64,000 bases of DNA from Pontibacter akesuensis. Its GTDB lineage: Bacteria; Bacteroidota; Bacteroidia; Cytophagales; Hymenobacteraceae. Every line of letters begins with the position of its first letter. Position 1 is the first letter of the stretch. Position numbers and translations under genes: made by a program. The notes below the pieces were generated by a model. The model saw nothing but the letters and a program-made list of their open reading frames with translations, searched no databases and was not told where the DNA came from. The stretch spans positions 620,001 through 684,000 of the forward strand of contig NZ_CP014766.1 in the NCBI RefSeq assembly GCF_001611675.1, in the 5' to 3' direction. This document shows positions 61,800 to 63,947 of the stretch, one piece after another.

Positions 61800-63947
61800 A
61801 TGAAAACAGCCAGCATTGCCGCCTACAACGGCTCATCGAATGAAAACCTTTTCGGCGTATCGGCACAGGTTACCGCCGCGCTCCAGGAAGCCCTGCCGCA
61901 AATCTACGCTTACCCTATGCCGGATGCCGCTCCCCTGCGAGCCGCAGTGGCCGACCATGTTGGTGTTAATCCGGAGCAGCTTGTAGTGGGCAGCGGATCA
62001 GCTGAGCTTATCTCGCTGCTGGTGCGCAGCTATTGCCAGCCTTTTAGCCAGTGCAACGTGGTGTCGGTGGCGCCAACGTACCCGCTGTACCAGATGGAGG
62101 CTGAGGCGCTTGGCGTACAGTTTAAGCAGGCCCCGCTCAACAGCAGGTATGCCTACGATTTACCTGGCATGCTGCGGCAGATTGACGCTGAAACGCGTAT
62201 TCTCTTTTTATCAAACCCGAACAACCCAACAGGCGGCTACCTGACTAAAACGGAGCTGGAGTGGCTGCTAAGGGAGGTGCCACCACACGTGCTGCTGGTG
62301 ATGGATGAGGCCTACCTGGAGTACGTGTCTGCCCCCGATTATGCCAATGCCCTGCCCTACCTGCCGCAACACGAAAACCTGGTGGTGCTCCGAACTTTCT
62401 CCAAAGCCTACGGATTAGCCTCGCTGCGTGTAGGCTACCTGATTGCTCAGCAGCAGGTGGTGTGCAGGATTATGGCCGTGAAGCAGCCGTTTAACGTGAA
62501 CCAGTTGGCGCAGATCGCTGCCCACGCCGCCCTTTACGACCAGAAGCACCTGCACCACACGCTCGAGCAAACGCACATAGGCAAAGGTCATTTACAGCAT
62601 TTGATGCAATTGGAGGGCGTGCAGTGGTGGCCATCGGAAGGCAACTTTCTGTTTGTGGATGCCGGACTGCCTGCCCGGCAACTGGCTGAGCCACTCCTGG
62701 AAAACGGCATCCAGGTGCGCTACACCGACAGCAACTATAATTTCCGGATCACGGTTGGCACACCGGCGCACCAGCAGCACCTGCGCGAGCAGCTCCATGC
62801 CATCCTCTCCCCTGAGAGCATATGGCCCAATAAAGTGCTCGCCCAGATTCTTAAAACAGGCTATACGCTTTCGAAAACAGACGATGTGTTTCAGGCCCTG
62901 GCTACTGTGTCTGAACTAGCTGAAACGGCCAATAACATTGGCACGGCTGCCGAACGCATTGCCCTGGCCTTTGCGCGCGCCTTCAGCAGTTGCCTCGGCC
63001 CGGAGGGGAACCAACATACCGGCAACCTGTACAGCAGCACTTTTGGCGAAACGGATATGATCTCGGCTTTTAACGTGCTGGTAAAATCAACGCCACTCGT
63101 TACGTTCGGCCACCACTTTGGCAACCTGGCCATTGCCGAGACCACTGCTGGAGCTTCCGAAATCCATATCCTGGACCTGGGCATTGGCGGTGGGTTGCAG
63201 TGGCTGCACCTACTGGAGCTATTTGCCGCGCGTGGAGAAAGCGCCCCGAAGATTCGCATTACGGGGGTAGATATTCCTTCTGCTGTTGGCGCACCAGATA
63301 AAAAACTGCAGCAAACAGGCAAAATGCTAACACAGCATGCAGAAAAGCTTGGCCTTCGGTTTAGTTATACGGCCATTGCCCAGCGGCTGGAGGTAGTGAA
63401 CCTGCGTAAGATTTATACCGCCGAAAACGAGGTGCTGGTGGTAAACTCTGCCTTCACGCTGCACCACCTGCCCGACCATCTGCTGGGGCCTGTGGACTAC
63501 CGCGACAGAATACTGCAACAGATTAAAGCGTTACAGCCCGCCATACTTACGCTCACCGAGCCAGACTCTGAGCACAACAAGCTGCGCTTCCTGCCACGCC
63601 TGCGGGAGTCGCTGCGCCATTACTACACCGTTTTTGATGCCCTGGACACACTGCTCCCCCGACTAATGCCTGAGCGCCAGATCATTGAGCAGGAGTTTTT
63701 CGGGCGCGAGATCATCAACGTTATTTCCTGTGAGAAACTGCAGCGCGTGGAGCGCCACGAGCGCCACGAAGCCTGGATGCACCGCCTCATCCGAAACGGC
63801 TTCGCCCCGGCGCCCATCAAAGACTCTGCAATCCAGATAAAAGAGAATTTGAAGCTGCACGTAAACTTTTCAGTACAACCGAACGGCGCTGGTAATACCT
63901 TGCGCTGGAAAGAGACTCCGGTTGTCGCCGCTACGGCATGGGTATAG
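61800..63947 (+). CDS. HisC-like PLP aminotransferase fused to a GRAS methyltransferase-like domain
   Basis: The 715-residue protein has two parts. Residues 1-345 are a class I/II aminotransferase of the histidinol-phosphate type: SNPNNPTG (138-145), Asp169 in VMDEAYLEY, PLP Lys202 in RTFSKAYGLASLRVGY and the substrate Arg316 in FRITVG. Residues about 350-715 match plant GRAS proteins: VHIID-like IHILDLGIGGGLQW (455-468), RITGVDIP, PFYRE-like FLPRLRESLRHYY (about 597-611), EFFGREIINVISC and RVERHERHEAWMHRL (649 on), and the SAW ending LRWKETPVVAATAWV. Both parts are in one frame with no stop between. The GxGxGG loop suggests real SAM binding. Substrate unknown; transamination plus methylation of an amine or amino acid would fit. 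Confidence 0.85.
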   Translation: MKTASIAAYNGSSNENLFGVSAQVTAALQEALPQIYAYPMPDAAPLRAAVADHVGVNPEQLVVGSGSAELISLLVRSYCQPFSQCNVVSVAPTYPLYQMEAEALGVQFKQAPLNSRYAYDLPGMLRQIDAETRILFLSNPNNPTGGYLTKTELEWLLREVPPHVLLVMDEAYLEYVSAPDYANALPYLPQHENLVVLRTFSKAYGLASLRVGYLIAQQQVVCRIMAVKQPFNVNQLAQIAAHAALYDQKHLHHTLEQTHIGKGHLQHLMQLEGVQWWPSEGNFLFVDAGLPARQLAEPLLENGIQVRYTDSNYNFRITVGTPAHQQHLREQLHAILSPESIWPNKVLAQILKTGYTLSKTDDVFQALATVSELAETANNIGTAAERIALAFARAFSSCLGPEGNQHTGNLYSSTFGETDMISAFNVLVKSTPLVTFGHHFGNLAIAETTAGASEIHILDLGIGGGLQWLHLLELFAARGESAPKIRITGVDIPSAVGAPDKKLQQTGKMLTQHAEKLGLRFSYTAIAQRLEVVNLRKIYTAENEVLVVNSAFTLHHLPDHLLGPVDYRDRILQQIKALQPAILTLTEPDSEHNKLRFLPRLRESLRHYYTVFDALDTLLPRLMPERQIIEQEFFGREIINVISCEKLQRVERHERHEAWMHRLIRNGFAPAPIKDSAIQIKENLKLHVNFSVQPNGAGNTLRWKETPVVAATAWV

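Follow-up and report, generated by a model that had tools for sequence, protein, structure and literature searches.

Our analysis of a 64,000-nucleotide window of Pontibacter akesuensis (the whole stretch of DNA under study, positions 620,001 to 684,000 of contig NZ_CP014766.1) revealed a bacterial protein of 715 amino acids in which a complete PLP aminotransferase half and a complete GRAS half are joined in one chain. Its gene occupies positions 61800..63947 of the window on the + strand, stop included, and reads from an ATG start through 715 codons without interruption; the frame, matches in Pfam and NCBIfam, and copies across the genus identify it, all 22 fused proteins of the genus matching both Pfam families. 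We propose the following model for its function. The protein probably carries both transaminase and methyltransferase activities, and we lean, with less assurance, towards the two working one after the other on a single molecule, regardless of which atom receives the methyl group. The HisC-like N-terminal half would convert an amino acid to its alpha-keto acid and back, and the same molecule would be methylated by the GRAS half, serving as a SAM-dependent methyltransferase.

The N-terminal half comprises a HisC-like PLP aminotransferase domain at residues 12-333 (61833..62798, + strand), recognised by NCBIfam, alignment and Foldseek. Aminotran_1_2 of Pfam matches residues 12-330 at 163.4 bits (cut-off 19.7), and the SNPNNPTG segment (residues 138-145), Lys202 and Arg316 are in place, in agreement with the first-pass annotation, which had read a complete aminotransferase in this single frame. 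Lys202, Asp169, Tyr172, Asn141, Arg210 and Arg316 are invariant in all 22 fused proteins; going by established knowledge of HisC, we take Lys202 to be the catalytic lysine, Asp169 and Tyr172 to anchor PLP, and the substrate to be met by an arginine. By its residues, this half would belong to the fold type I PLP aminotransferases of the HisC-like kind. AlphaFold returned a confident two-domain model of the full protein (mean pLDDT 91.8, pTM 0.89), and the best Foldseek match of the aminotransferase half is Rv3772 (4r2n; TM 0.87 by target length, rmsd 1.8), the nearest solved structure among HisC-type aminotransferases. The fold, the PLP lysine and its anchors are common to these enzymes and the fused protein, which differs from them in the attached GRAS half and in its N-terminus: residue 12 aligns with profile position 26 of the hisC model, so that the protein starts about 14 residues short of it. 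The fused relatives start similarly, near a Y-x-A-x-x-NENLFG segment, as judged without mapped starts.

The C-terminal half is a GRAS domain by both Pfam and fold (residues 359-714; 62874..63941, + strand). PF03514 matches at 296.8 bits (E 2.7e-88, profile positions 13-373 of 374, cut-off 27) and the protein ends in TAWV, as expected of the complete C-terminal GRAS domain read earlier; in the Pfam check proposed at that stage, both families lie far above their cut-offs. Modelled alone, the domain reached a pLDDT of 92.9. Foldseek matched the GRAS half to SCL3 and OsSCL7 with TM 0.86-0.88 by target length, and the GRAS-only model retrieved 12 plant GRAS chains as its top 12 matches (E 3.5e-24 or better, TM by query 0.82-0.88), followed at 8e-7 or weaker by SAM-dependent methyltransferases and a related cyclase. 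A kinship of bacterial GRAS domains with Rossmann methyltransferases had been cited in the first-pass annotation, and the predicted fold, with its Rossmann core, agrees with it; neither of the outcomes named there as refuting the reading, a missing GRAS match or a fold lacking this core, occurred. The predicted model also combines that core with a glycine loop and an acidic residue after strand 2, as in class I SAM methyltransferases.

These features can be assigned to individual residues. The glycine loop DLGIGGG, the expected SAM-binding motif I, spans residues 459-465 (63174..63194, + strand) in the alignments. Alignments and the AlphaFold model together place three further elements on the same strand: Asp491 (63270..63272), the presumed ribose contact, where the second Rossmann strand ends; His555-His556 after the fourth strand (63462..63467), candidate catalytic or metal residues; and EPDSEHN (residues 587-593; 63558..63578), where the fifth strand ends, which may include catalytic or substrate-binding residues. 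In class I methyltransferases, residues for substrate binding and catalysis sit at the ends of core strands 4 and 5, and His555 and Glu587-His592 occupy these positions in the model. DLGIGxG, Asp491, His555, His556 and EPDSEHN are invariant in all 22 fused proteins. All 33 bacterial rows listed, of 52 rows aligned, retain the SAM-type form of the loop already noted in the first-pass annotation; the accompanying claim that plant members largely lost it also holds, Gly463 and Asp491 being lost in all five plant rows. Plant GRAS proteins (SCL3, OsSCL7, SCR, SHR, RGA) share the fold of the whole domain and the QW, FFGRE-like and SAW-like segments, but differ in these two losses and in having no aminotransferase. 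In five pairs of fused genes, dN/dS was 0.05-0.18 across aminotransferase, linker and GRAS portions, with dS high and partly saturated; these ratios indicate purifying selection on the GRAS half.

Could the fusion be an assembly join? This origin is excluded, because the fusion recurs, always in one frame, in 22 of the 50 genus genomes, a count that includes the window's own; the search for the same fusion elsewhere that had been suggested thus found it. Within the family, 22 of 204 genomes have a GRAS domain; all of them belong to this genus, and the frames measure 716-774 amino acids from stop to stop. With the aminotransferase half as query (E <= 1e-20), copies of at least 50% identity appear in the same 22 of 50 genomes that hold GRAS, and in the other 28 the matches are all HisC-like and do not exceed 36% identity; the halves are therefore present or absent together. 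At least one tested neighbour is kept in all 21 other carriers, the NUDIX-like gene adjoining the fused gene in 18 and upstream-side genes being kept in the remaining three, which indicates descent within the genus. Recent transfer into the host was set aside on these grounds. Wider GRAS scans, which overlap one another, gave 21 of 390 genomes for the order, 4 of 296 for the phylum, 1 of 244 for the class of G645 (G645 itself), 1 of 10 among genomes reached via loci, 13 of 235 for the phylum of Sorangium and 19 of 183 for the order of Sorangium. The GRAS profile thus covered the scanned taxa, a few locus-derived genomes and 14 control genomes, the controls giving no GRAS domain. The GRAS half had no match among plasmids, and a contig scan gave 22 loci, in each of which the match was confined to the aminotransferase half.

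The genome containing the window (4.83 Mb) has this one GRAS match. Upstream of the fused gene lie a nitroreductase gene and a pirin-like gene (the latter identified by reading its translation), and downstream a NUDIX-like gene, all on the opposite strand. With neighbours on both sides facing the other way, the fused gene is probably a separate transcription unit, and it is left without pathway context. A pattern scan just past its end counted three terminator-like sites against 1.1 expected and found no promoter there. Past the end of the window, downstream of the NUDIX-like gene, L068:3573-13520 holds genes reading as glycosyltransferases, dehydrogenases and epimerases; four of its glycosyltransferase-like genes were looked for in other carriers, which retain them in part close to the fused gene.

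Unfused GRAS genes also occur beside aminotransferases. A phmmer search with the aminotransferase half found an aminotransferase gene directly adjoining GRAS in 7 of 29 loci, and nine later loci added none, giving 7 of 38 overall. The aminotransferase precedes GRAS in L069 and L113 and follows it in L114, L110, L111, L128 and L124; in L115 the two lie 2.4 kb apart. With the most probable start codons, the two genes share an ATGA in L069 and L113 and a single base in L114, and the gaps measure one base in L124, 68 bases in L111 and 55 bases in L128; no start is listed near the junction in L110. At a guessed chance of 1% per locus, the binomial probability of 7 adjacent pairs among 29 is 1e-8, a figure that treats as independent loci that are not, L110 and L111 being near-identical; for 4 of 10 lineages, taken as an illustration, it is 2e-6, with both the 1% and the 10 being guesses. 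The coupling of transamination to methylation predicted in the first-pass annotation gains support from these neighbouring pairs and keeps its standing as a prediction. Upstream of the pair in L069, a small ACT-like protein is encoded at L069:1970-2383 (24.1 bits, below the cut-off of 27).

Phylogenetic analysis of the aminotransferases, with a tree from which 14 of 18 Gemmatimonadota rows of the aminotransferase contig scan were omitted in thinning, placed the 22 fused domains in a clade of their own (100/100) that joins the remainder at 82/45. They do not group with the aminotransferases adjoining the nearest GRAS relatives. Those of L110, L111, L128 and L124 cluster with his-type HisC (97/82), and those of L069, L113 and L114 fall, with weaker support, near Rv3772 and myxobacterial aminotransferases, a region in which L009 and L010 adjoin genes read as aroA and L010 also pheA. 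With the fused clade joining at only 82/45, the pairs may differ in descent. GRAS-linked aminotransferases come from at least two subfamilies, which we read as unlike transaminases having been paired with GRAS at least twice. Such repeated pairing would make hitch-hiking less likely, and under it the two genes would not have to be inherited together as a single unit.

What might a transaminase and a methyltransferase accomplish together? Deamination, methylation of the keto acid and re-amination form the known logic by which beta-methyl amino acids are made, and an aminotransferase and a methyltransferase, with no further pathway gene evident, are the minimum set for it. In the likeliest cycle, an amino acid would be deaminated to its keto acid, a methyl group would be placed onto the acidic carbon next to the keto group, and re-amination would then yield the beta-methyl amino acid. 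We propose this C-methylation cycle only tentatively, both the order of its steps and the shared substrate being conjectural; an aromatic substrate would be a guess by analogy with the nearest solved structure. If sequential action is right, the fused protein pairs the same functions as beta-methyl amino acid pathways such as that of MrsA, which presumably employ separate proteins and a methyltransferase family other than GRAS. Several C-methyltransferases of alpha-keto acids are described in the part of the literature available to us, namely MarI, MppJ, SgvM, CdpJ, MrsA and GlmT (PMC10502145), and a title in the references of that source describes one C-methyltransferase of the kind as a non-haem-iron enzyme. 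None of the six is among the 50 matches listed for the GRAS-only model. Against action of the two halves in sequence stands the lack of an adjacent aminotransferase at 31 of 38 unfused GRAS loci, several of which (e.g., L157) are cut by contig ends.

Sequential action does not require that carbon be the methylated atom. With about the same probability as in the C-methylation cycle, the GRAS half may instead N-methylate an amine or amino acid made by the transaminase, or form a methyl ester. The non-GRAS structure matches include the histidine N-methyltransferase EgtD and histamine N-methyltransferase, whose likeness allows N-methylation, together with a fatty acid O-methyltransferase and PsoF; these matches are weak, however (TM about 0.35-0.5 by target), and mix C-, N- and O-methyltransferases with none singled out.

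GRAS domains can also serve elsewhere, as their other surroundings illustrate. At 10 of the 38 unfused loci (L117:7678-11392, L115, L118-L123, L160 and L161), all myxobacterial, GRAS is followed by a conserved four-gene run encoding, in order, a 171-aa protein, a SpoIIE-type phosphatase (PF07228), a 178-aa protein (weak DUF6272) and a 135-aa protein, an arrangement that seems to resemble a partner-switching signalling operon. This arrangement, and the fact that plant GRAS proteins are regulators, would fit a GRAS half that has no catalytic role and instead detects a small molecule which the transaminase half produces or consumes. We regard such a sensor as quite improbable: no recognisable regulator gene adjoins the fused gene, and Gly461, Gly463 and Gly465 and the candidate catalytic residues His555, Glu587 and His592 are invariant in all 38 bacterial GRAS rows of alignment A3, which comprises part of the bacterial rows of the first GRAS tree and includes members of the signalling-like runs, so that invariance alone does not show catalysis. 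Other contexts vary further. At L117:13693-15294 and L158:6847-8418, a single protein carries GRAS with a TerB domain C-terminal to it. Sorangium-type GRAS adjoins genes reading as the large and small subunits of glutamate synthase, without an aminotransferase, in L102, L153, L155 and L157, and an alcohol dehydrogenase-like gene lies in between in L102, L153 and L157.

Returning to the aminotransferase half, the TIGR01141 hisC equivalog of NCBIfam matches residues 12-333 at 281.8 bits, passing its cut-off of 276.55 by about 5 bits, and TIGR04544, the beta-methylarginine bifunctional aminotransferase, scores 67.6 bits, below its cut-off of 350. The genome holds seven aminotransferase-like matches, the fused protein included. 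It has a better HisC (374.5 bits) within a hisG-hisD-hisC-hisB run, its gene names taken from reading translations; the fused protein is thus neither in his gene context nor the sole HisC of the genome, and histidine synthesis is therefore an unlikely role for it. That the fused protein is a plain second histidinol-phosphate transaminase with GRAS as a passenger, as the hisC score could imply, is scarcely credible and was set aside given the HisC in the his run, the 28 genus members that manage without a fused copy and the purifying selection on the GRAS half. As the hisC cut-off is passed, automatic naming could call the fused protein a histidinol-phosphate transaminase, and it is a likely case of misannotation.

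How does the fusion relate to the plant regulators? In the first GRAS tree, the five plant proteins, the 22 fused proteins, Sorangium, G1195, G1086 and G645 separate from the other 26 bacterial rows at 100/100, and a second tree, which omits 13 of the 57 rows (three long-branch rows and ten near-copies) and adds three Sorangium-type rows, recovers the same split at 100/99. In both trees, which are midpoint-rooted, include five plants on long branches, draw bacteria from few phyla and contain several rows of odd composition, the plant sequences group with the fusion-bearing bacterial clade, apart from other bacterial GRAS. The trees include neither L156, the fourth later Sorangium-type genome, nor the other later loci. 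Of 30 plant-side bacterial genomes seen whole, 25 have GRAS linked to an aminotransferase, 22 of them, all of one genus, by fusion and 3 by direct adjacency; counted by lineage, the link is present in four of five, namely the fused genus, G645, G1086 and G1195. The fifth, the Sorangium type, has no aminotransferase beside GRAS in five genomes, one of which, G1344, was placed by Pfam score rather than by tree; a sixth, G1345, is cut by a contig end. The first-pass annotation had suggested that the fusion might be close to the enzyme from which plant GRAS regulators arose. The union of plants with this clade supports the idea in part, but plants may lie either beside or within the aminotransferase-linked bacteria, since the second tree does not reject clade-A bacteria forming one side (p-AU 0.306; seen in 7% of bootstrap trees), and the five Sorangium-type genomes speak against it. 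On balance, we consider it unlikely that the plant regulators derive from the methyltransferase partner in a bacterial pairing of transaminase and methyltransferase.

Zhang, Iyer and Aravind (2012) reportedly described bacterial GRAS domain proteins and proposed them to be methyltransferases. The fused protein has in common with these bacterial proteins the GRAS domain, the Rossmann methyltransferase fold and the retained SAM loop; it differs in being fused to a PLP aminotransferase and in belonging to the sub-clade that groups with plants. In the portions of the literature available to us, bacterial GRAS methylases and their transfer to plants are already in print (PMC6232258, PMC9942845, PMC4279901, PMC12448838), and the 2012 study is cited on bacterial GRAS in three of these sources (PMC6232258, PMC9942845, PMC4279901). 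One bacterial subgroup is stated there to group with plants and to share plant motifs (PMC12448838, citing Fang et al. 2017); if that subgroup corresponds to our plant-side clade, the new point is the aminotransferase link. The literature listings covered on bacterial GRAS with aminotransferases or Pontibacter show no fusion or transaminase link; the founding 2012 paper lies outside this coverage and may mention the fusion.

The fused partner and the neighbouring pairs narrow the chemistry of GRAS before plants to molecules that a HisC-like transaminase handles, and the pre-plant substrate could therefore be screened for with one purified protein. If plant GRAS regulators did arise from such a pair, the plant GRAS pocket would originally have bound an amino or keto acid, and the fusion would be a living relative of the enzyme ancestral to these regulators.
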